In this document: positions 308 to 23,898 of the stretch, piece after piece
Layout: the number at the start of each line of letters is the position of its first letter
How positions within the stretch are numbered: the stretch's first letter is position 1
Virus record (IMG/VR): IMGVR_UViG_3300025889_000893
Span: 1 to 24,791 of that record
DNA from: a virus
Length of the DNA stretch: 24,791 nucleotides
Strand: one strand, 5' to 3'
Program-made: the position numbers and the translations under genes
The notes under the pieces: generated by a model
What the model saw: the letters and a program-made list of their open reading frames with translations, nothing else
Databases searched by the model: none
What the model was told of the DNA's origin: nothing

Positions 308-2407
308 TTAGAACCGTCCTCCAACAACAGCTTGTGCAGGGGTTTCCTGCGGATAACGGGGCTGGGCTTGTGCTTGTTTAATCCCTGCCACGTCCACCGT
401 GGTCTGGTATTGACCGTAAATCTTGGCCGCGTCTGTGAGCAACTGCTGATCCATCTTGTCGCGCTCACGGTCGTCCTGTGCGATGGCTTTCTGAGCCTCG
501 ATCTGCAACTTGAGCATTTGGACCTCTTTGTTCGCCTGCGCCTTGATCTGCTCGGCTTGGATGATTGCCTGTGCCTGCTGGTCAACTGGGGGCTGTTGCT
601 GGGCTTGAGCCGCCTGTGCCTGCAATTGCTGTTCGACCTGTGCGTCCATCGGGGCAAAATAACGGTCAGCATTACGTACACCCTGCACGGCCAGCATATC
701 TGCCAGTGTGTTGCGGATGTTGGTCATTGAGACCAAACCGTTGCTTGCACCATAATTTTGGTAAATCTGCATTTGCAGTTGTAAGGCTTGTGCAAGCGCC
801 GCAGAACGCTGGTCTTCCCGTCCAGTACCCAAACCGACGTTTACGGTAACATCCATCTTGGTGTTCCAAAAACGTGGGTCAATGGGCTGATACTGGCCAC
901 CAGCCATGCGCATCATCAACTCTTCGTCAACGTTTTCGACCATCAACTTGAGCATCAGCTTGAACAGGCGACGCATACCGCCCTCTGCCAAGTTTCGAGC
1001 CATAACCTCAACCTGACCAGCCGCCGCCTGAATGGTGGCGTTTACAGCCGCCGCAGTGGTTGACTGCATGGCATCGGGGTTCAGACCGCTGGATGCCTTT
1101 GTAACGCCCGTTTTGGACTCGATTTCAGCATCCATGTACTGCATTGCAGTCAGGGTCTGGCCAGCCACGAATGGAACAGCCAAGTCGCGTACAGCGCCAG
1201 AAGTCTTGACTCGGACAATACCAGCGATTTCGTTGTTCAGCAGGTCTTCAATGTTGACCTGACCGTCTAGAACTTCACGCTGTGGGTTATTGGTCAGTGC
1301 AACGTTATCCAGAACGCCACGTAGCATCATTGTTGATGCATCCTGCTCGTTCATCAAAATGTCTGCAATTGAACGGCCAAAGAACGTGTGTGGCTCTGGG
1401 TCGATCTCAAACACGGCAAATGGGATTTCGCTCCACGGCTCAATGCTCAGGATTTGGTAGTCGTCGCCACCCAAGACAACACGTTGCAATTGAGCAACAC
1501 CAGTGCCGTCAACGTCGATACGCATATACGCCTCGGTGACAGCCACAAGCCGCATAGACGGGTCTTGGACGTTCTCTTGGGCGTAAGCGTTGTCATACCC
1601 TTGGCGCTCGAATTCTTCGGCGTTAGCGGTCGTGTCAGCGGTGCTGAGACCTGTCAGGTCAACAACGTCGTCGTACTCATAACCCAAAGCAACCAAATCA
1701 CTGACACGCATCTCAGTGCGGTGAGCCACCACGTAGGCGTCGTCAATACGCTTTGCGCCACGGTCAACAAAGAACTCTTCAGGCGGCACTGATTCGATCA
1801 TCAGGTCGCCGTACTCTTTGGTCAAAGCGATCTTGAGGTAGTGCTTTGGCGACTCAACGCTCATGCCCATTTCGTCGATCTCGATTGACTCGGTGACCGA
1901 ATGCTCAAGGATTTCGACGTTGTCCTCTGCGGCAATCACAGAATATTCTTGGTCGTTGATGTCGTGGTACTCGTAGACTTCCTGTTCCTGCTTGGTATCC
2001 CAGTAAGTTTTTACAACGCCAACCTTTTTGACCAAAGCGTCGTGGAAAGCGTCGTTGATGATGCGATAGCCGCCCAGTTCGTTGAACTTGCTGGACATAT
2101 ACTTGGTAGCCAACTCAGCAAAGTTAACGTCCTTTGGGCCTGTTGGAACGTACTCGACAGCACGGTCTGTTGACAGGAACACACGCATCAGGCTTGGCTT
2201 GATGGCACGAACGGTGTCACGAATCTTGGTGGCCACAACACGACTGCGACCCTCTTCCTCACCGATGTCAACTTCGCCATCAAAGTAGCGCTGTGACTTG
2301 ATACGGCTTGGTGCGATTTCGCTTTCGACAAAATCCACTGCCTCTAGCACCGCCTCTCGGACAATGCCTTGGATTTCGGTTTCTGTCATTGGGGTAGGCT
2401 TACTCAT
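308..2407 (-). CDS. Portal protein, P22-like type (699 aa)
   Basis: The portal forms the dodecameric ring at one capsid vertex through which DNA is packaged and ejected. The length (699 residues) is close to that of the P22 portal (725). The N-terminal part contains the family-like segment around residues 55-120, with conversion to arginine/lysine-rich helices (R-V-V-A-T-K-I-R-D-T-V-R-A-I-K-P) and Y-W-D near residue 137. The C-terminus from about residue 590 to 656 is a glutamine/alanine-rich coiled coil, matching the helical barrel that P22-type portals extend into the capsid. The ATG overlaps the stop of the upstream 645-residue gene (ATGA), with GAGGTG 7 nt upstream. Recognition is by overall pattern and context; the specific subfamily is inferred. 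Confidence 0.92.
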   Translation of the reverse strand: MSKPTPMTETEIQGIVREAVLEAVDFVESEIAPSRIKSQRYFDGEVDIGEEEGRSRVVATKIRDTVRAIKPSLMRVFLSTDRAVEYVPTGPKDVNFAELATKYMSSKFNELGGYRIINDAFHDALVKKVGVVKTYWDTKQEQEVYEYHDINDQEYSVIAAEDNVEILEHSVTESIEIDEMGMSVESPKHYLKIALTKEYGDLMIESVPPEEFFVDRGAKRIDDAYVVAHRTEMRVSDLVALGYEYDDVVDLTGLSTADTTANAEEFERQGYDNAYAQENVQDPSMRLVAVTEAYMRIDVDGTGVAQLQRVVLGGDDYQILSIEPWSEIPFAVFEIDPEPHTFFGRSIADILMNEQDASTMMLRGVLDNVALTNNPQREVLDGQVNIEDLLNNEIAGIVRVKTSGAVRDLAVPFVAGQTLTAMQYMDAEIESKTGVTKASSGLNPDAMQSTTAAAVNATIQAAAGQVEVMARNLAEGGMRRLFKLMLKLMVENVDEELMMRMAGGQYQPIDPRFWNTKMDVTVNVGLGTGREDQRSAALAQALQLQMQIYQNYGASNGLVSMTNIRNTLADMLAVQGVRNADRYFAPMDAQVEQQLQAQAAQAQQQPPVDQQAQAIIQAEQIKAQANKEVQMLKLQIEAQKAIAQDDRERDKMDQQLLTDAAKIYGQYQTTVDVAGIKQAQAQPRYPQETPAQAVVGGRF

Positions 2408-4341
2408 TTATTCGCACCTCGTTTAAGCAATTCTTCTATTGATCGGTATGCGTTGTATTCGTCAATGTTGCGCATTCTGTTGAGTACGTCGATTGCCTTT
2501 TCACCAGCGCCCCGAGCCGCCGCTTGGGTAACTCCACCTTGAGCCGCCTGCATACCAAATTTTACAGCGCGTGCGCCAGCGCCCTCAAAACTTGTTTTTG
2601 CAACGGTCCCAAACTTGTCGTCCAGAACGTTAGCAAACCGAGCTAAGTCAACAATGCTGTCATTGAAGTTTGGCGCTGTCATTGCACGTGGACCGCCAAG
2701 GTATGGGCCAAGTTGACGCGACTCGCTTGTTGAGGCGAATTTCTTAGCAAGGTCATCCATTGAGCGAATAGCAACATCCAAGTCTTGACGGCTTTGATAA
2801 TTTGAAAACAACTTGCGCAATTCTGTTCCCATGCCACGGGAATCTGACAGTGTTTTCTTAACTGTAATCTTTGATGCCGTCGCAGAATCCAACTGGTCAA
2901 ATAATTGCAGTGACTGAGAAATAATGTCGTTTACTCGGGCATAGTCTGGGTCAGACGTGCGTAATGCATCATTTAGAGCGCGGCGAACGTCTTTAAGAAT
3001 ATTCTCACCACTCTGTGTCAAACCCTTTTGAGGCGTTTTTTGGTAGTCAACTAAAGCGTCAATTTGACGTTTAAGGTTGTGCGCTCTTAGGGCATCTGGC
3101 GCACCTTTTGTTGAATCAGCCATCAATCCAGCCAAATCTTTCAAAACTCGCTGTGAAGACCTGTCAGCCTGAATGATTGACCCATTAAAGTTGAAAACTG
3201 GTTTGCCATCAACCATTTGAAATCCAACGCCCAGTTCGTCTAGGCTGGTCAAAAATGTTTGCTCAATTGGCGCAACATCAAAAGGCTTGCCTTTTAGGTT
3301 TGTCTTTGCGATGTCGTTCAATTCTTTTCTGGCAGAAGTGGACTTTTGTGCAATAAACTTCAAACGCTCTGCCGCGGAATCGCCAACAATGTTTGATGGG
3401 CGCAACAGAATATCATTGGCAGAATTCGCCGCAATTGCTTCTCGATTCTTGAGCATTTGCAACATCTTTGCCTGAGTCGCTGGCGATGACGTTTTAATCA
3501 TCTGCACATCGCCCTCTGCAAACTGCTGTCGAATAGCCTCATTTGCCAATTCATCGGCCACCAATTTTTCGCGCTGTGAGGCCGTGTACTTAGCTAACCC
3601 ACGCTGACGACCGCCCTCTTGGATTTCTTTAACCAATGCGCTTTCAACAGCTTTTGGTGTACTGCTTGTGCCGAGCATTGTTCGTGGCGCAACGTCTGGG
3701 ATAGCCGCTTGAGCCGCTGGAGACAGTTCGCTGTAAACAATGTTGTGTTGGTTCAAGGCGTCCATCAACTCCCTTGTGGGAACGCCACCCTGCTTTAAAA
3801 CCGTACCACCTTTTAGGTTCTGGAACGCTTTTAAGCCGAACAGTGTTGCAACAATGTCGGGTGCAACGTATGCCGCAGTACCAAGAGCAGGTGAACCTGT
3901 GTAGTCTGTGACTGCTTCACCTACACCACTCATGCCTCGCTCAAGTGTCTCAAACGGCTTTGCAACAGCGCCAAGAATTGTTTTGCCAGCTTCAGTACGC
4001 GGCTGGTATGTGCCAGCCTCTTGAATGGACTTGACTATGTCTGCGCTTTGGTCAACACCAACAAAAGGTAGTGAAGCCAAACCAGCCAAGCCAGCCCCAA
4101 CAGACGAAACAGCCCCAGTTCCCATTGTGAGCGCCGTTTCACCCAGTCCAAGCATACCCTGACCAAAACCAACCTCTGGCGTTTCGGGTGAGCGCAAACG
4201 TTGTTGAGCAACTGGTGTTTGTTGTGATTCTTCCTCCGCTTTTGCCTCTCTGTAGGCTTTGGCGACAGTTTCAAATTCAGGCGTACCAGCTTTGTCTTTG
4301 TTCTTAACAATCCATTCAGCGTATTGATCTGCTGTTGCCAT
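2404..4341 (-). CDS. Probable internal virion / DNA-ejection protein (645 aa)
   Basis: A large, mostly helical protein, directly upstream of portal and overlapping it by 4 nt. Residues 1-40 form a charged module (A-E-W-I-V-K-N-K-D-K, then G-T-P-E-F-E-T-V-A-K-A-Y-R-E-A) that I know from N-termini of phage internal virion and polyvalent proteins. Residues about 60-105 are a small-residue-rich hydrophobic segment (G-E-T-A-L-T-M-G-T-G-A onward), followed by T-Y-Q-P-R-T-E near 112. The remainder is long helices with little cysteine. The same G-E-T-A...G-T-G-A...T-Y-Q-P-R-x-E pattern opens the protein at 16426-18012. The hydrophobic glycine-rich part would suit membrane insertion during DNA ejection, but this is inferred. 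The start is ATG with AAGGAT upstream. No enzymatic motif is visible. Confidence 0.8.
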   Translation of the reverse strand: MATADQYAEWIVKNKDKAGTPEFETVAKAYREAKAEEESQQTPVAQQRLRSPETPEVGFGQGMLGLGETALTMGTGAVSSVGAGLAGLASLPFVGVDQSADIVKSIQEAGTYQPRTEAGKTILGAVAKPFETLERGMSGVGEAVTDYTGSPALGTAAYVAPDIVATLFGLKAFQNLKGGTVLKQGGVPTRELMDALNQHNIVYSELSPAAQAAIPDVAPRTMLGTSSTPKAVESALVKEIQEGGRQRGLAKYTASQREKLVADELANEAIRQQFAEGDVQMIKTSSPATQAKMLQMLKNREAIAANSANDILLRPSNIVGDSAAERLKFIAQKSTSARKELNDIAKTNLKGKPFDVAPIEQTFLTSLDELGVGFQMVDGKPVFNFNGSIIQADRSSQRVLKDLAGLMADSTKGAPDALRAHNLKRQIDALVDYQKTPQKGLTQSGENILKDVRRALNDALRTSDPDYARVNDIISQSLQLFDQLDSATASKITVKKTLSDSRGMGTELRKLFSNYQSRQDLDVAIRSMDDLAKKFASTSESRQLGPYLGGPRAMTAPNFNDSIVDLARFANVLDDKFGTVAKTSFEGAGARAVKFGMQAAQGGVTQAAARGAGEKAIDVLNRMRNIDEYNAYRSIEELLKRGANK

Positions 4342-12179: not shown

Positions 12180-12443
12180 TCACCACTTTACTTTGTCAGC
12201 CCAGTAAGCCGCCGACATCTTGCCTTTTGCTATATTCTTGGCGTGTCGTGCCTTGAACGCCTCGTTCCGCTTTGAGCCATCAGGAGAGCCTTTGACGCCC
12301 TGCTGACCAAAACGAATTGTCTTAACCTGCTCACCAGACTTGGCCACCACGACGTGTGACTTAGTTGGATGGCTCGGTGTCTTCTTTGGCTTATTGTATC
12401 CAGAGACGCCAGCACGTGCTAGTCGGCTGTCCTTTGTGGCCAT
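12180..12443 (-). CDS. DUF6321-like small basic protein (87 aa)
   Basis: The protein is very basic, with R-L-A-R-A-G-V-S-G-Y-N-K-P-K near the start, H-P-T-K-S-H-V-V-V-A-K, then I-R-F-G-Q-Q-G-V-K-G-S, R-H-A-K-N-I-A-K-G-K and the terminal A-A-Y-W-A-D-K-V-K-W. These motifs are those of the small phage family known as DUF6321. Function is unknown; it is regularly found among structural genes and could bind DNA or RNA because of its charge. It shares a TAATG stop-start overlap with the upstream gene. Confidence 0.85.
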   Translation of the reverse strand: MATKDSRLARAGVSGYNKPKKTPSHPTKSHVVVAKSGEQVKTIRFGQQGVKGSPDGSKRNEAFKARHAKNIAKGKMSAAYWADKVKW

Positions 12444-12832
12444 TAGTCTTCCATTTCAAAGTCTTTGCGCTCCCATGCTTGGCAGACACGCAGATTATGG
12501 CAAATAAAGTCAAATTTGACACAGTAACCACGTCCACCGCCATCCATATCGAATGACGTAAGCGGGATTGCCTCCATTTGCTTTTGCTTTTCAGGAGTAT
12601 TGTCAAAGTATTCGCAGTTGGCGCAGAACAAGCGTCGAGCCTCTTTATCGCTCGTTTGCAGTCGTCGAGCCAACTCTGACCAATACGGCTTGTTTGCCTT
12701 TGGATCAACAGAAGTCTTTTCTGGGCCAAGATGCCAGTTGGCTTTGACTTGAGCCATATTTGATTTGTTTTCAGCCGCCGAAACAATCGGCTCCAAAACC
12801 ATGTGCTTTACGGCATCTTTAATCGTAGCCAT
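12443..12832 (-). CDS. Cys-containing hypothetical protein, possible metal site (129 aa)
   Basis: A 129-residue soluble protein with four cysteines clustered in its second half: C-A-N-C near residues 69-72, a cysteine in R-G-Y-C-V-K-F, and another in F-I-C-H-N-L-R-V-C-Q. The C-x2-C plus later cysteines could coordinate zinc or an iron-sulphur cluster; this is inferred. The N-terminal part is helical. It overlaps both neighbours by one nucleotide (TAATG), making a coupled trio with the genes at 12832-12999 and 12180-12443. I recognise it only as a common phage hypothetical protein. Confidence 0.78.
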   Translation of the reverse strand: MATIKDAVKHMVLEPIVSAAENKSNMAQVKANWHLGPEKTSVDPKANKPYWSELARRLQTSDKEARRLFCANCEYFDNTPEKQKQMEAIPLTSFDMDGGGRGYCVKFDFICHNLRVCQAWERKDFEMED

Positions 12833-13594: not shown

Positions 13595-13623
13595 ATTATA
13601 ACGGTCACCAAAGAGTTAAGCAA
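13595..13623 (-). promoter_or_regulatory. Sigma70-type promoter, leftward, for the structural genes
   Basis: On the minus strand a perfect TATAAT (13600 down to 13595) is preceded, with a 17-nt spacer, by TTGCTT (13623 down to 13618). The -35 box overlaps the last codons of the large terminase gene. Transcription would begin near 13588, about 20 nt before the next start codon. Confidence 0.6.
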
Positions 13624-14896
13624 TTCCTTTCAGATTTCGTCTGATTGGAGCGCCCCAGTCGGATGTAGCCCTGTGACCAACCGCCAGGTATCTGAAAGCG
13701 TCAGAACCATGCGACGCCCAGTCGTGGGCTGGTCTTGAGCGCCACACCTTGCCGTTGTCGTCATATTCCCTGTGGTACTGCCTCAGAGCGTCTACACCAC
13801 GCTCACAGCGCTCTGCATCGAACCAGCAGTTGGCAAGCATCGAGCGTACCGCTTGGATGCCGTCATCGACCATTAGTTGCGGCGCAATCGTAATCGGCTT
13901 GACGCCCAGCCCGTCCAGCGTCTCAAGGCGTGACTTACCCGACCCAAGCTCCCTGACTCTGACGTCGTGCGGGAGAATGTGGTTCGTGTAGACGTACCCT
14001 TTTTGGTTGAGTACCTGCACGTAGTGATCCAGCCCCACACCTGACGACTCATAATAGTCAATAAGGCGAACCTCTGCCCCAACGTGTTGAGCGAACCAGA
14101 TTGCTGTCGAGTCGCCCACGCCCAAGTCCCACGCAGTTGTGACCCCAATGCTCGGAGTGTAGTCAACAGTGCCAATTTGCCCTTTATCCTTGCAATTTCG
14201 CATCTCAGTAGCGTAATACGCACCTTCAGCGTGAACAAGAAAATCACCTTCCCAAACGTGGTCATAAATGTCTGGCCTCTTTCGTTTGTCTTCAAGACGC
14301 TCCTTTTCCAGCACATCTGGAAACCATGGGTTGTCCCTCCAGTTCATCTCAACAATGATTGCGTCGTCAGGCGGTTGCTCAACGAATCGTTTATGAGTCG
14401 CCGACTCTTTGGACTCAGGGTTGTACGTCACCCATATCTCGGAATCATTCTCCCGTACCGTTGGAATCAGCTTGCGCCAAGCCGTCTCACTGACGGTCTC
14501 AGCCTCATCGATCCATGCCACCAGAATGCGTGCCTTTGACTTCAGGCTGTCCAGTGACCGCCGTAGACCAGCGAACGTGTACGTAATCGCCCCGTCCTTA
14601 GACTTGATGTACTTGTCGCCCAGTTCGTAGTAAGCCTCAAGCTCTGGGACGCTCCTGATGGCCGCCTTGACCTCTTCCAGAGACGAATCGTCCAATGAGT
14701 TCATAAACTCACGTCCACAGAGTATCTGGCCAGACATCCCAGCCTTACCCCACTGGTAACCCCTGACCGCGGTCATCAAAGCGAATGTGCGAGTCTTTGC
14801 ACTGCCTCGGCCGCCCTTGGCCACACGGTAACGTGCTTTCTTGGTGAAAACAGGGATGAGTTTGGGCGGTATCGTTAACCGTAGCTCACTCATCAT
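13616..14896 (-). CDS. terL: Terminase large subunit, Terminase_3-like (426 aa)
   Basis: This ATPase-nuclease motor drives DNA into the capsid and cuts the concatemer. Using the ATG at 14896, the Walker A motif G-G-R-G-S-A-K-T is at residues 28-35, Walker B I-L-V-A-W-I-D-E-A-E at about 124-133 and the coupling motif W-V-T-Y-N-P at 155-160. The nuclease domain has D257 (T-T-A-W-D-L-G), D311 (L-P-H-D-V-R) and D392/H396/D399 (H-D-W-A-S-H-G-S-D-A-F-R). All key residues are present, so it should be active. The frame extends to a TTG at 14920, but the two ATGs at 14896 and 14893, with GGTGGGG upstream, are the better starts. It overlaps the small subunit gene by 11 nt. Confidence 0.95.
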   Translation of the reverse strand: MMSELRLTIPPKLIPVFTKKARYRVAKGGRGSAKTRTFALMTAVRGYQWGKAGMSGQILCGREFMNSLDDSSLEEVKAAIRSVPELEAYYELGDKYIKSKDGAITYTFAGLRRSLDSLKSKARILVAWIDEAETVSETAWRKLIPTVRENDSEIWVTYNPESKESATHKRFVEQPPDDAIIVEMNWRDNPWFPDVLEKERLEDKRKRPDIYDHVWEGDFLVHAEGAYYATEMRNCKDKGQIGTVDYTPSIGVTTAWDLGVGDSTAIWFAQHVGAEVRLIDYYESSGVGLDHYVQVLNQKGYVYTNHILPHDVRVRELGSGKSRLETLDGLGVKPITIAPQLMVDDGIQAVRSMLANCWFDAERCERGVDALRQYHREYDDNGKVWRSRPAHDWASHGSDAFRYLAVGHRATSDWGAPIRRNLKGIA

Positions 14897-15278
14897 CTGG
14901 CCCCACCAAGCGGATGACAACTGGCTGACTTGTTGGAGTCATTGAGCCATCGGAAGACGTTGCGTCCACCTTGTCTGAGTATCCGTGCTTGGTAAGGATC
15001 ATCTTGGTGATGGAGGCATTGAAGTGCCCCATCAAGCCATTTCTGATGAGTTCGTCTTCCTGCATTGACATGAGTTTTGCATAAATGTGAGAAAACTCTG
15101 GCTTGTCTTCGTCTTTTGCCCATGCCTGTAATGTTTCACGGGCGACATCAAGGCGGACAGCAAGCCCTGCAATGCTTGGTAATGTGTTGAAGTCCTTTAA
15201 GTACCTGTGGCACTCTTCTAGCAGTTCAGGCGTGTATTTTGTTGGCCTGCCGCCTGCGTGTTTGGTTGGTTCTGTCAT
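14886..15278 (-). CDS. terS: Terminase small subunit, DNA-packaging gp3-like (130 aa)
   Basis: The small subunit binds the packaging site and stimulates the large subunit. The N-terminus G-G-R-P-T-K-Y-T-P-E-L-L-E (about 9-21) is a typical family opening. A helix-turn-helix at about residues 35-55 follows (S-I-A-G-L-A-V-R-L-D-V-A-R-E-T-L-Q-A-W), then a long oligomerisation helix to about residue 100 and a disordered tail with S-D-G-S-M-T. The P22 gp3-type (GP3_package) family fits best. It lies upstream of the large subunit and overlaps it by 11 nt. An AGAGAG about 7 nt upstream serves as ribosome-binding site. Confidence 0.88.
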   Translation of the reverse strand: MTEPTKHAGGRPTKYTPELLEECHRYLKDFNTLPSIAGLAVRLDVARETLQAWAKDEDKPEFSHIYAKLMSMQEDELIRNGLMGHFNASITKMILTKHGYSDKVDATSSDGSMTPTSQPVVIRLVGPDDE

Positions 15279-15315: not shown

Positions 15316-16245
15316 TTATTCTAACGGTATGCCATTCCGCTCAAGAATCTTTAATAAACCCTCGTTTTGTGGAAACACCACAAAGTTGCGCGTGTCAGCC
15401 TTCTGACCGCCACGACTCTGAGCATCAAAGTATCTGATCCCAGGCACTCCTGCCTGACGCATTTGCTCTGCACCAGCAGGTTTCTTTGCGTTCATAGCGG
15501 CAACCAAGTCGCCACCAAGATCGTCCGAGGCCAATCCAAACTGTTTGGCCAAAGCCTGTATTTCTGGCGTCTGCTTGCTGATCTCAGCATCCCAGTCTAG
15601 CATCTTTGCGATCTGGTCGTCTGGCAAGTCAATTTTGTAAAAAGCGCCCCCACCAGAATCTGAATATTTTTTAAACAACTCAGCCAGTTTTTCTTGCGGG
15701 AAGTCTCTTGCGGCTATGCTTGCGTTTTGCAGACTTCTTGCCATTGCCTCTGGCGGTTTGTTTGCCCTTGACTGCCTGATGAACTCACCCCTTACGCCCG
15801 CTGGCAAATCCAGCCCCATCATTTTGGCCTCTGATTGCAAGTCAAACGCTTTGTGCGCAAGCATTTGCTGAAACTGTTTCGCAACATCGGGGTTCTCGGC
15901 CACATAGTGCCCGTACCCATAAGCCTGCGCCCCCTCACCAGAGCCAATTGCCTTTGGTGCAAACGCATTGAACTTGTATGGGCTACCGTGGAACACAGTC
16001 ATGCCCATCGGGTTGTACGCATCTGCCAACGTGCCAGCCAACTGTTGACTCTTTGGCCCAAACAGTGGGTCACCGTTGCGACCCTCTTGAGCCGCTTCAG
16101 CCGTCAGCTTGTTCAACACCCCAGCACGGTCATTAGCGTTGCCAACGATCTGCTGTGCCGACTCCACTGGGTTCGACAGCATATCCAGCAGAGACCTCTT
16201 AAATGAGTCTGCGGTGCTGTAAATGGATGCTAATGGTGATGGCAT
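15316..16245 (-). CDS. ART-PolyVal-like ADP-ribosyltransferase (309 aa)
   Basis: ADP-ribosyltransferases move ADP-ribose from NAD+ to a target. Family-like motifs are in the expected order: V-F-H-G-S-P at 84-89 (candidate NAD-binding His86), G-S-G-E-G-A-Q-A-Y-G-Y-G-H-Y-V-A-E at 101-117, Y-K-I-D-L-P-D-D at 203-210, G-I-R-Y-F-D-A-Q-S-R-G-G at 269-280, and R-N-F-V-V-F at 286-291. This matches the ART-PolyVal type of phage polyvalent proteins. The first 75 residues are a separate helical module, perhaps for packaging or ejection. It has no signal peptide. No Shine-Dalgarno precedes the ATG; a TATAAT lies 15 nt upstream, so the leader may be very short. Its target is unknown. It sits just upstream of the terminase genes. 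Confidence 0.85.
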   Translation of the reverse strand: MPSPLASIYSTADSFKRSLLDMLSNPVESAQQIVGNANDRAGVLNKLTAEAAQEGRNGDPLFGPKSQQLAGTLADAYNPMGMTVFHGSPYKFNAFAPKAIGSGEGAQAYGYGHYVAENPDVAKQFQQMLAHKAFDLQSEAKMMGLDLPAGVRGEFIRQSRANKPPEAMARSLQNASIAARDFPQEKLAELFKKYSDSGGGAFYKIDLPDDQIAKMLDWDAEISKQTPEIQALAKQFGLASDDLGGDLVAAMNAKKPAGAEQMRQAGVPGIRYFDAQSRGGQKADTRNFVVFPQNEGLLKILERNGIPLE

Positions 16246-16274
16246 GATGTGTGTTTTTAAATTATAATATGCAC
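16246..16274. promoter_or_regulatory. AT-rich bidirectional -10 region between divergent genes
   Basis: ATTATAATAT at 16261-16270 contains a TATAAT on each strand: 16263-16268 rightward and 16266 down to 16261 leftward. The rightward -10 is followed 6 nt later by the ATG at 16275; the leftward one is 15 nt from the ART gene start at 16245. Neither start has a Shine-Dalgarno. No good -35 is visible for either direction, so strength is uncertain. A single TGTGTT half-site lies at 16250-16255. Confidence 0.4.
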
Positions 16275-16499
16275 ATGAAAAAAGTTATTGCTTATTGTGG
16301 GTTCAACAGCCAAACAGAACTGCCGTATGTGTTGCTTAAACAGTCGTTTAGAGACTTGACCGAGCAACAGCAAATTTCAGTCCTGCAAGAACTTATTGAA
16401 GAGTTGCAATTTGAATTGGACTTCATTACAGGCGCCCAAGATACTTCAACAGGCCCTCGACAGTCTGCTCATCAATCTGTTCGCCCTTGTGAGATTTGA
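16275..16499 (+). CDS. Small rightward gene between ART and polyvalent genes (74 aa)
   Basis: This is the only convincing + strand gene left of 22 kb. Its first 50 residues have no leftward gene opposite them; they read M-K-K-V-I-A-Y-C-G-F, then E-L-P-Y-V-L-L-K-Q-S-F-R-D-L and a strongly amphipathic helix (Q-Q-I-S-V-L-Q-E-L-I-E-E-L-Q-F-E-L). The last 24 residues overlap the 3' end of the converging 528-residue gene and look less protein-like. Start alternatives are ATG 16269 and ATG 16275, neither with a Shine-Dalgarno; a TATAAT at 16263-16268 would make the transcript almost leaderless. Codon bias and composition look genuine. Function unknown; small regulator or antagonist of a neighbour is a guess. 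Confidence 0.6.
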   Translation: MKKVIAYCGFNSQTELPYVLLKQSFRDLTEQQQISVLQELIEELQFELDFITGAQDTSTGPRQSAHQSVRPCEI

Positions 16500-18012
16500 G
16501 AAGTGATGTTCTGATGTTTGCGTCTGTCTTGCCTTGTTTGCGCAACTGATCAAACGTTTTGCGAAACGTCAGGTAGTCTGGAACGGCGACAATATTCCCC
16601 TGCGCATCTTCAAACCCACCAAGCAAGCCAGCAGTTGGTATGCCTGCTCGGTAAGACCCATGCTTATAAGACGGCGTCACAATTGAACTGTCGGGCTTGG
16701 CTTTAAATATGGCCGCACCAGACCCGCCCGTGTAAGCCTCTGGTTTGTTCATTACCTTATTGACATCCCTTATTCTTGGAAACCCAAGTTTTTGGAATTT
16801 GTCTGCCCCCATCTCTTCAGCAATAGCCTTTCGGATGTTGCCGGCAGAAAACTGGCCCTCTTGCCCGTTGGCCATGATGTCGTAAATGTTTGGGCTGTCA
16901 ACACCGGCAAAGTTTTTATATGGCGTAACTTTGTAAGAGTTCCCGTCTTTGTCTTTTTTGATCTCAACCCTGTTTCTTATGGTTTCATTAAGTTGCTTGT
17001 AAGCATCTTTTGATGGGCGAATGGCTGGCAATTGGCCAACCAAGCCCTCAGAAACATGGTGAGAAAAATTTGAACTTGCTGGCCCAAGGTAAGACGAAAT
17101 CCCAACCGTATCCCCAAGTTCAGAATACTGATTTAGGTTTGCAATTTTGCTAGAGGCGGCGCCAGGTTCAGATGCCCAAGCAATTTTTTCATCAATATTT
17201 TGTTGCAAAGAGCCGTATTGAGTGCCACCCTGCTTTTTGACTGGTCGAGCCAATGGGACGCCAGCAACTTGATATACCGTTTCGCCGGCGCCAGACCAAT
17301 CTGACATTACTGGAACGGCATACTTGCCAAGCAAATCCTCTGGGTTAACGCCGCGCTGTGGAGCAAACACCTCGCCCTCGGTTGGCAAAATAATGTCGCT
17401 ACCGCTTTGTGCCATCTTTTCTCGACGCATCACCGCAGGAGTGTCAAGTGCCTTTTTAAACTTTGTCAGCGCCGACTTTTCTGCTGATGTCAATGACGAC
17501 AACGTCCTGTTTGGGAACAGAATCTCAATCACTGGTACGCCGTTTACACTGTCAGCAAAAGACAATGAGCCTCGCGTCAAGTCGCGCAAAACCTGTGCAT
17601 TTGCGCCGCCTTTTTCAAGGGTTTTAATTACAGCAGGTTCAATGGCTTTTTCTAATGCCATACCAGCACGTTCAGCCTGAGACGCCATTGCCGTTTTGTT
17701 TAATCCAAGCGCGGTCAGCGGAGCCGCCTCTGGTACGACAGCAGGAATTTTTGCGTCTTCCATAAACGCGCCCAGCTTTTGAATCAACCCTTGTGCAACC
17801 TCGCCTCTCGGCTGGTAGGTCAACTGGTTCATCATTTCGATGGCCGCTCGGTCTGCCTCTTTGCCGCCCTCGTATGTCCCGTAATTTGGGCTAGTTATGC
17901 CCTTGTAAATCCCATACAGCGGTCCAGCAACGCCAGCAAGCGCACCAGTACCAAGTGTCGCCGCAGTTTCGCCGGCGCCCTGCAAATAGTCCCAAAGGGT
18001 TGGTTCAGCCAT
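16426..18012 (-). CDS. Polyvalent-type phage protein with ejection-like N-terminus (528 aa)
   Basis: The N-terminus has a glycine-rich hydrophobic segment (G-E-T-A-A-T-L-G-T-G-A-L-A-G-V-A-G-P at about 14-31) and L-T-Y-Q-P-R-G-E near 64. The same pattern opens the virion-cluster protein at 2404-4341. The centre, V-P-L-A-R-P-V-K-K-Q-G-G-T-Q-Y at about 252-266, followed by I-A-W-A-S-E-P-G-A-A and N-F-S-H-H-V-S-E near 315, is a pattern I associate with large polyvalent protein-associated domains. No nuclease, protease or methyltransferase motif is evident. It precedes the ART gene in transcription order. ATG at 18012 lacks a Shine-Dalgarno. The 3' end overlaps a converging small gene by 74 nt. 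Confidence 0.78.
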   Translation of the reverse strand: MAEPTLWDYLQGAGETAATLGTGALAGVAGPLYGIYKGITSPNYGTYEGGKEADRAAIEMMNQLTYQPRGEVAQGLIQKLGAFMEDAKIPAVVPEAAPLTALGLNKTAMASQAERAGMALEKAIEPAVIKTLEKGGANAQVLRDLTRGSLSFADSVNGVPVIEILFPNRTLSSLTSAEKSALTKFKKALDTPAVMRREKMAQSGSDIILPTEGEVFAPQRGVNPEDLLGKYAVPVMSDWSGAGETVYQVAGVPLARPVKKQGGTQYGSLQQNIDEKIAWASEPGAASSKIANLNQYSELGDTVGISSYLGPASSNFSHHVSEGLVGQLPAIRPSKDAYKQLNETIRNRVEIKKDKDGNSYKVTPYKNFAGVDSPNIYDIMANGQEGQFSAGNIRKAIAEEMGADKFQKLGFPRIRDVNKVMNKPEAYTGGSGAAIFKAKPDSSIVTPSYKHGSYRAGIPTAGLLGGFEDAQGNIVAVPDYLTFRKTFDQLRKQGKTDANIRTSLLKSHKGEQIDEQTVEGLLKYLGRL

Positions 18013-18089: not shown

Positions 18090-18638
18090 TCAGTCTACGC
18101 GCTCTTTAGCTAACCGTCTAGCCTCTGCCCTGTAGTGTTTTGAGATTTGTTCCAGCCCTTCCTTGGTGTACTTTCGCAATACGTTATCGCTCTCTAGTTG
18201 CTCAAGCCTTTCCAGCCCGATGCGTTCCATTAGGCGCTTTCGATATTCAACCGCATTTCCTGACAAATGACAGTTACATTTTTTGCATTGCCCGTGTACG
18301 TTGTCCTCAACAAACCTCATGTGGGGCGCAGAACCGACCGAACGGTAGTGGCCAGCGTCAAACGTGTTTGGGCCACCGTCTAGGGGCTTGTCGCAACTAA
18401 TGCAGGGTTTGCCGGCGTCTCTGGCGCGGATATATGCGTTGAACGCTGTCTGGGCCCTCTTGACCAGTTGGGGTTTGGTCTGCATGGCATCCAGCTTTAT
18501 CTTGGTCTGTTGCTTGTCTTTTTTTTGAACGACCTTACGCGCAACTTTCATCGCGCAAGCTGGGCCACACACGCTCTGCATTGGGCGCACCGGGGTGAAT
18601 GGCGTCTTGCACTCTTTACACTTTTTAGTCAATTTCAA
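18090..18638 (-). CDS. ninG: NinG/Rap-like recombination nuclease (182 aa)
   Basis: Lambda NinG (Rap) is a structure-specific endonuclease acting on branched recombination intermediates. This 182-residue protein has the family layout. A zinc ribbon has C7-x2-C10 and C24-x3-C28, and a basic helix follows (A-Q-T-A-F-N-A-Y-I-R-A-R-D). The nuclease core has C79-x2-C82, D-A-G-H-Y at 94-98, H115, C118-x2-C121-N122 and S-G-N at 126-128, resembling an HNH centre. All are intact. The start is TTG at 18638 and overlaps the ninB-like stop by 14 nt. It is the last gene before the terminator. Together with NinB it reproduces the lambda nin-region pairing. Confidence 0.9.
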   Translation of the reverse strand: MKLTKKCKECKTPFTPVRPMQSVCGPACAMKVARKVVQKKDKQQTKIKLDAMQTKPQLVKRAQTAFNAYIRARDAGKPCISCDKPLDGGPNTFDAGHYRSVGSAPHMRFVEDNVHGQCKKCNCHLSGNAVEYRKRLMERIGLERLEQLESDNVLRKYTKEGLEQISKHYRAEARRLAKERVD

Positions 18639-22972: not shown

Positions 22973-23311
22973 ATGGAAATCAAAACCAATGCCGTTGAAA
23001 AAGCCTTGCGTCTGCTGGAAGCGGCCGGCGCGTCATTCCACGTCAAGCTGGATGATCAAGAATGGGGCAAAGCCATCGCCACGAAAGGCGCTCGAAAGGC
23101 GTCTAAATACCCGTATGGAAGCGTGACTGCGCACATCAAGCCATACCTGGCAAACGTTAAGGTAAACGACGCTGTGGCCGTGCCGTTTGGCGACTTTGAT
23201 GGCGATACGGTTCGCGCAACAATGTCAAGTTATTTGAGCGACAACTGGGGCAATGGCTCTTACATGATCCATAAAGCCAAGAACCAAATTGAAGTGTTGA
23301 GGTTGCTATGA
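22973..23311 (+). CDS. Hypothetical early protein preceding the recombinase (112 aa)
   Basis: A 112-residue protein with helix (V-E-K-A-L-R-L-L-E-A-A-G-A), a basic strand region (K-G-A-R-K-A-S-K-Y-P-Y-G-S) and a C-terminal segment A-V-A-V-P-F-G-D-F-D-G-D-T-V-R-A-T-M-S near 66-84, ending I-E-V-L-R-L-L. The V-P-F-G-D-F-x-x-x-x-V-R and I-E-V-L-R patterns suggest a small winged-helix-like fold, which I cannot confirm. It overlaps the recombinase gene by 4 nt (ATGA), so the two are co-translated. AAAAGGGGAA precedes the start. Confidence 0.78.
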   Translation: MEIKTNAVEKALRLLEAAGASFHVKLDDQEWGKAIATKGARKASKYPYGSVTAHIKPYLANVKVNDAVAVPFGDFDGDTVRATMSSYLSDNWGNGSYMIHKAKNQIEVLRLL

Positions 23312-23898
23312 TCGACGCATTGCTCAAAACCAACGTAAACGATCACGTTGAAAAGAAAAACGGTCTGTCGTACCTGTCCTGGGCATGGGCATGGGCAGAG
23401 GCGCTGAAAGCCGATCCCAAAGCCACGTTCAAGGTGGAGATGTTTGGCGACAAGTGCTTTATGGAAATCAACGGCACTGCAATGGTCTGGGTGACCGTCA
23501 CAATGTTTGACAAGCCCATGACCTGCCAGCTTCCAGTGATGGACTTCCGGAACAAAGCCATACCGAACCCAGACGCCTTTGCGGTCAACACGGCAATCAT
23601 GCGCTGTATGACCAAGGCATTGAGTCTGCACGGCCTTGGCCTGTACATATACGCTGGTGAAGACATCCCAGAACAGGCGCCAGCACCAAAGATCAGGCCA
23701 GTCCCAGAAATGGAACTACCTGAAGCAGAAAAAGTGGAACTGCAAGAGATTGCGGAACTGCTCAAAGAGTTGGTGACAACCGATCTGGATCACGCCAGAG
23801 AGGTCGTCGCAACATCAAATCTGGATGAGCCACAGAAGATTTATCTGTGGTCTCTGCTAGACTCCAAAACCCGTTCAGCATTGAAGAAAAAGGACTAA
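23308..23898 (+). CDS. DUF1071 / Sak3-type single-strand annealing protein (196 aa)
   Basis: These proteins anneal complementary single strands during phage recombination and belong to the Rad52-like group. The pattern is strong: N-V-N-D-H-V-E-K-K-N-G-L-S-Y-L-S-W-A-W-A at residues 9-28, N-G-T-A-M-V-W-V-T-V-T at 55-65, L-P-V-M-D-F-R-N-K-A-I-P-N-P-D-A-F near 75-91, and N-T-A-I-M-R-C-M-T-K-A-L-S-L-H-G-L-G-L-Y near 94-113. The last 75 residues are acidic and variable. The neighbouring gene downstream, with an SSB-like tip, overlaps by one nt (TAATG), suggesting joint action. Confidence 0.92.
   Translation: MIDALLKTNVNDHVEKKNGLSYLSWAWAWAEALKADPKATFKVEMFGDKCFMEINGTAMVWVTVTMFDKPMTCQLPVMDFRNKAIPNPDAFAVNTAIMRCMTKALSLHGLGLYIYAGEDIPEQAPAPKIRPVPEMELPEAEKVELQEIAELLKELVTTDLDHAREVVATSNLDEPQKIYLWSLLDSKTRSALKKKD

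Follow-up and report, generated by a model that had tools for sequence, protein, structure and literature searches.

Gene layout of the window

The window, i.e. the whole stretch of DNA analysed, is a complete IMG/VR record of 24,791 bases, and the record ends where the window does. Two open reading frames, for a 309-residue protein (15316–16245) and a 528-residue protein (16426–18012), were confirmed on the minus strand. They are sandwiched by ninB–ninG on one side and terS–terL on the other, with ninG (18090–18638, minus strand; E 2e-51) forming the upstream border of the slot and the small terminase gene (14886–15278, minus strand; GP3_package, E 5e-20) its constant neighbour. The large terminase gene occupies 13616–14920 on the same strand (Terminase_3, E 2e-28). 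Promoter and terminator scans of this effector slot yielded nothing above shuffled sequences.

Farther along the minus strand lie genes for an SU10-type adaptor, virion structural proteins, three probable ejection proteins of 390, 419 and 645 residues, and the portal (308–2407). The three were called ejection proteins from their position and from a match of the 645-residue protein, which is encoded at 2404–4341 (minus strand) next to the portal gene, in the P22 gp16 position. Tail and ejection genes separate terL from the portal gene, which lies approximately 11 kb farther on and closes the virion cluster at its far end. No major capsid or scaffold gene was recognised in the 24,791-base record. 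A Sak single-strand annealing protein is encoded at 23308–23898 on the plus strand (Pfam, E 3e-42), divergently from the late genes, and DUF1376 and DUF3310 genes are located nearby on the minus strand. After terL, the window carries minus-strand genes for a cysteine-rich 129-residue protein (12443–12832), a relative of which is annotated as 'high potential iron-sulfur protein', and for an 87-residue protein (12180–12443). Relatives of these two genes occur directly or closely upstream of effector genes of the N1 or N2 kind described below (loci L013, L025, L030, L113, L115 and L122).

The two proteins of the slot

The 309-residue protein comprises an N-terminal module, N1 (residues 1–82; 16000–16245, minus strand), and a domain (residues 83–309; 15319–15999, minus strand) predicted to adopt an ADP-ribosyltransferase (ART) fold. 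The motif blocks that a sequence-only reading had assigned to an ART were all present, namely TVFHGSP with His86, GEGAQAYGYGHY, GIRYFDAQSR and NFVVF. These motifs are not due to chance, since an alignment of 33 relatives shows no variation at His86, Tyr114, Asn287 and a number of glycines. One ART relative is gp5 of phage phiGT1 (QLB38217). In the AF2 model (mean pLDDT 71, higher in the core), His86 is in strand 82–88 and Tyr114 in strand 113–116, as in the ART superfamily, where the first strand provides the His and the second the Tyr. Asn287, the presumed third catalytic position, lies in a modelled strand at 286–290. Polyvalent ARTs are of the H-Y-D type, with Asp as the third residue, as described by Iyer et al. 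(2017, PMC5512222).

The Pfam profile ART-PolyVal (PF18760) matched residues 82–127 with an E-value of 9e-4 and 20.5 bits, under the gathering cut-off of 31.2 bits. The same profile scored 30.9 and 31.1 bits for the relatives at L025 and L098, respectively, and 40.5 bits for L085, which belongs to another cluster. When residues 80–306 of the model were compared with known structures using VIA-align, the top matches were all ART folds with Z-scores of 7–9.5, including a chain of the Cyanophage A4 pre-ejectosome (9.5), diphtheria toxin (8.9), ParT (8.3), PARPs (approximately 8) and the RES toxin (7.3); rows within 1 Z count as tied, and the A4 chain and diphtheria toxin are thus tied. The A4 pre-ejectosome structure was determined by cryo-EM, and the resemblance of the ART to its chain is structural only. 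The ART sequence profile found no match in the PDB, and a Foldseek search of the model against the PDB returned nothing significant for ART (best E 0.037), whereas the VIA comparison did find ART folds. The BFVD search retrieved many viral proteins named 'ART-PolyVal-like' (best named one, E 3e-18), and PADLOC gave only a marginal defence match (E 0.0097). With ART folds on top and His86 and Tyr114 invariant, the proposed membership of the ART superfamily was upheld. An ART gene beside the terminase is not new in itself, because approximately 44% of phage ARTs have already been reported in contexts suggesting packaging, including near terminase and portal genes (Iyer et al. 2022, PMC9503650). 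In other phages, the ART is found within giant ORFs adjoining internal virion proteins.

The 528-residue protein consists of a second N-terminal module, N2 (approximately residues 1–130; 17623–18012, minus strand), and a domain termed coreP (approximately residues 206–528; 16429–17397, minus strand). The protein had no match in Pfam or PHROG, its AF2 model reached a pLDDT of 38, its profile retrieved only chance histone matches from the PDB, and the N2 sequence profile retrieved nothing there. As a lone peptide query it found nothing, whereas alignment queries did find relatives. With a deeper profile, coreP was detected behind N1 at L033 and behind a third N-terminus in 516-residue proteins (E 5e-16 each); an earlier hhalign comparison of the 528-residue protein with these had been weak owing to shallow alignments. 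The 516-residue proteins (L002:4508–6055, L009, L011 and L101) stand in place of the 528-residue protein and carry coreP behind this third, unrelated N-terminus. The polyvalent-domain-like core previously read into the 528-residue protein was not borne out, as no named LPD family matched; the expected profile matches were thus recovered for ART-PolyVal, at a sub-cut-off score, and not for LPD.

Constant N-termini and exchanged C-termini

The separate helical module surmised at the N-terminus of the 309-residue protein was recovered as three AF2 helices within residues 6–77 (at low confidence) and is strongly conserved. In close relatives from viral contigs, the first 82 residues are kept and the remainder is different. 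Scanning viral contigs with the N1 alignment led to 67 distinct N1 proteins, whose C-termini form eight clusters without mutual BLAST similarity; these are sequence clusters rather than folds, and several may be distant ARTs. They comprise an ART cluster of 35 members, zincins (13), a mixed cluster (11), an HGG type (3) and a SAP type (2), along with one member each for a GNAT, a canonical ART-PolyVal (40.5 bits) and the core of the 528-residue protein (L033). The HExxH motif is kept in all 13 zincins, most members of the mixed cluster have a ParB-C-like GDWV domain, and L025 combines ART and GNAT in one chain. Of note, three N1 proteins (L038:3907, L039:4944 and L056:4944) have a 16-residue His-rich extension (MHHHNLGWLYNLFGVN or similar) ahead of N1; their ORFs overlap terL by 31 nt and may have a wrong start.

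Identities of N1, TerL and C-terminus are 100%, 98% and 16% for the pair L051/L054, 98%, 100% and 23% for L091/L094, and 95%, 90% and 14% for L003/L007. At the DNA level, four pairs are 87–96% identical over N1 and 85–96% downstream, with 22–34% in the C-terminal part between. In a tree of TerL sequences from 51 loci, the C-terminal class must have changed at least 14 times; the deep branches of this tree are long and unsure, and many of the switches fall between close tips. The N-termini are therefore constant and the C-termini exchanged wholesale, a pattern that the sequence-only reading overlooked and that is of greatest interest here.

This pattern bears on whether the proteins serve in virion structure or morphogenesis, with C-terminal domains that are inactive folds or maturation helpers, e.g. 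zincins acting as proteases. Having Asn as the presumed third catalytic residue would agree with such a role, and HExxH proteins could process head proteins; however, His86, Tyr114 and every zincin motif are retained, and phages with near-identical TerL swap the domains freely, which an essential structural role would forbid. We consider this explanation very unlikely.

N1 genes adjoin terminase genes in 61 of the 67 cases, with terS as the next gene in 35 (window included), terL at most 1.3 kb downstream in 17 and terL directly upstream in 9. This constant terminase-side place would suit an assembly role as well. N1 had no counterpart in cultured phages, known virion proteins or other ORFs of the same loci, and pattern-based scans of bacterial genomes, which distant relatives could escape, found none for N1 or N2.

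The closest design is that of the MuF toxins of temperate phages, which have a MuF N-terminus, a variable C-terminus that includes ART and metallopeptidase domains, and an immunity gene (PMC5576092). Both sets share a constant, virion-linked N-terminus, a variable C-terminal effector and a gene in the packaging module near the terminase or portal, as would be expected if the slot encoded a polymorphic toxin that, as has been proposed for the MuF toxins, serves together with immunity in bacterial competition. Unlike these, N1 and N2 are not MuF, and their phages are podovirus-like, without relatives found in the pattern-based scans of bacterial genomes. No small immunity ORF follows the gene of the 309-residue protein, as terS starts 37 nt downstream, and where terS is the next gene, mostly overlapping, there is likewise no such ORF, so that approximately half of the genomes could not accommodate an immunity gene. 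Membership of the MuF toxins was rejected, given no MuF match in Pfam at E-values up to 1 and no downstream immunity ORF, and a polymorphic toxin is in our opinion extremely improbable.

N2 shows the same behaviour. It precedes coreP in the window, L109, L115 and L013, an ART in L098, L112, L113, L116 and L122, and a zincin in L111; in L098 it is joined to an ART plus a ParB-C-like domain, and L097 has two tandem genes with N2-type N-termini and other C-termini. The N2 genes of L112, L113, L115 and L122 occupy the same slot, ahead of terL–portal. N2 is also found inside proteins of 1000–1500 residues (e.g. L120, L123, L126 and L135). A large protein at L137:2–3979 bears its ART close to the N-terminus, ahead of an N2 in mid-chain, so that the cargo precedes the module rather than following it. 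The ART is thus shared by N1 (window) and N2 (L098, L112, L113 and L122), and coreP by N2 (window), N1 (L033) and the third N-terminus, so at least two unrelated front modules can carry either of them as exchangeable cargo. The notion that the window genes are a split form of a larger system gained support from the relatives that fuse an ART to the N-terminus of the 528-residue type and from N2 within the long proteins.

The likeness to polyvalent proteins (PMC5512222) extends to ARTs of the ART-PolyVal type and HExxH domains; in the available part of that account, no mention of N-terminal modules of the N1 or N2 kind was found. Polyvalent proteins have at least two effector domains per polypeptide, as do the proteins of L098 (ART and ParB-C) and L025 (ART and GNAT); the window instead distributes its cargo between two shorter genes, whose products each have one recognisable effector domain behind a small N-terminal module of their own.

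Ejection-protein relationship and proposed function

The ejection-like N-terminus attributed to the 528-residue protein was confirmed by profiles. The N2 profile matched the 645-residue protein of the window (E 5e-8, 32.6 bits, against 8.7 bits for the best of 2000 shuffles) over a segment of only 70 residues (residues 63–132; 3946–4155, minus strand), as well as a 'DNA injection protein' of MW202713 (E 3e-21), another part of which matched the PHROG entry 'DNA ejection protein' (2e-38). The 645-residue protein also resembles, over a stretch of 145 residues, the gene 19 product of vB_PspP-H6/1, annotated as 'putative ejection protein' (E 2e-3); gene 19 is the last of three ahead of the tailspike. 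Homology to ejection proteins of the P22 gp16 type was found for the N2 segment only. Ejection proteins of the gp16 type are inserted into the inner membrane (PMC8954989), and N2 is moderately hydrophobic; N2 could therefore carry an attached domain across that membrane.

Alternatively, the proteins might act unpackaged in the producing cell, in late host take-over, anti-defence or superinfection exclusion, with N1 and N2 as tethers to the portal, the terminase or the membrane. The constant place beside the terminase would suit this, and N2, as the most hydrophobic stretch of the N-terminus of the 528-residue protein, might serve as a membrane anchor. We nevertheless judge it unlikely: N2 has counterparts in ejection and injection proteins, and the occurrence of the same cargo on two unrelated N-termini is most simply explained if both are sorting modules.

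The reading that we favour, and hold to be reasonably probable, is that the two genes encode virion cargo, in which portable packaging and ejection modules deliver exchangeable early effectors. The constant-N/variable-C design, its repeated swapping, the terminase-side place, the ART fold and the link between N2 and ejection proteins were observed in this analysis; packaging, ejection, enzyme activity and target are what we infer. The best structural match of the ART model, the A4 pre-ejectosome chain, speaks for this reading although diphtheria toxin is tied with it, as do the giant ART-containing ORFs adjoining internal virion proteins in other phages. Against it count the sub-cut-off ART-PolyVal score and the Asn in place of Asp, the absence of an N1 counterpart among known virion proteins, the shortness of the N2 link to the 645-residue protein and a terminase-side place that suits assembly too. 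N1 or N2 would sort its protein into the prohead and let it exit with the DNA via the ejection channel, and the exchangeable C-terminal effector would act in the new host cell. Since the slot lies upstream of terS–terL, within the morphogenesis gene cluster, the cargo would be made during head assembly, i.e. late, and be ejected with or before the DNA. The first cargo of the window is predicted to be an ART-fold enzyme, which may modify host macromolecules in an NAD+-dependent manner or cleave NAD+, and the second would be the uncharacterised coreP domain. We propose that the C-terminus changes while TerL hardly does because early effectors are under arms-race selection.

Phage T4 provides a functional model in Alt, a head-packaged ART that is injected with the DNA, and the closest analogy for N1 and N2 in its internal proteins, which are variable and have an N-terminal capsid targeting sequence. 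Those targeting sequences are short and cleaved, whereas N1 and N2 span 80–130 residues, and no sequence relation to Alt or the internal proteins was seen. With the P22-type ejection proteins (gp7, gp20 and gp16), the likeness is the N2 segment common to the 645-residue protein and annotated ejection or DNA injection proteins; they differ in that their genes belong to the virion cluster and they form a conduit, whereas the N2 effectors are encoded on the terminase side and carry enzyme domains.

We give even chances to the idea that N1 and N2, unrelated to each other, each suffice for packaging and ejection, such that whatever domain follows them enters the head and is injected. If so, the place beside the terminase would be a plug-in effector slot, and giant polyvalent proteins and split effectors would be two states of one modular system.

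To our knowledge, how phages choose the proteins to be loaded and injected is understood in few systems, namely T4 targeting sequences, MuF, and the T7 and P22 ejection proteins. No account of N-terminal modules of the N1 or N2 type was found in the open-access literature, and the two represent candidate modules absent from catalogues, each with many natural cargo swaps. Their sorting function is therefore directly testable by fusing module and reporter. If the proposal is true, uncharacterised phage C-terminal domains would become a searchable list of early effectors, and N1 and N2 could supply a natural signal for phage-borne protein delivery.
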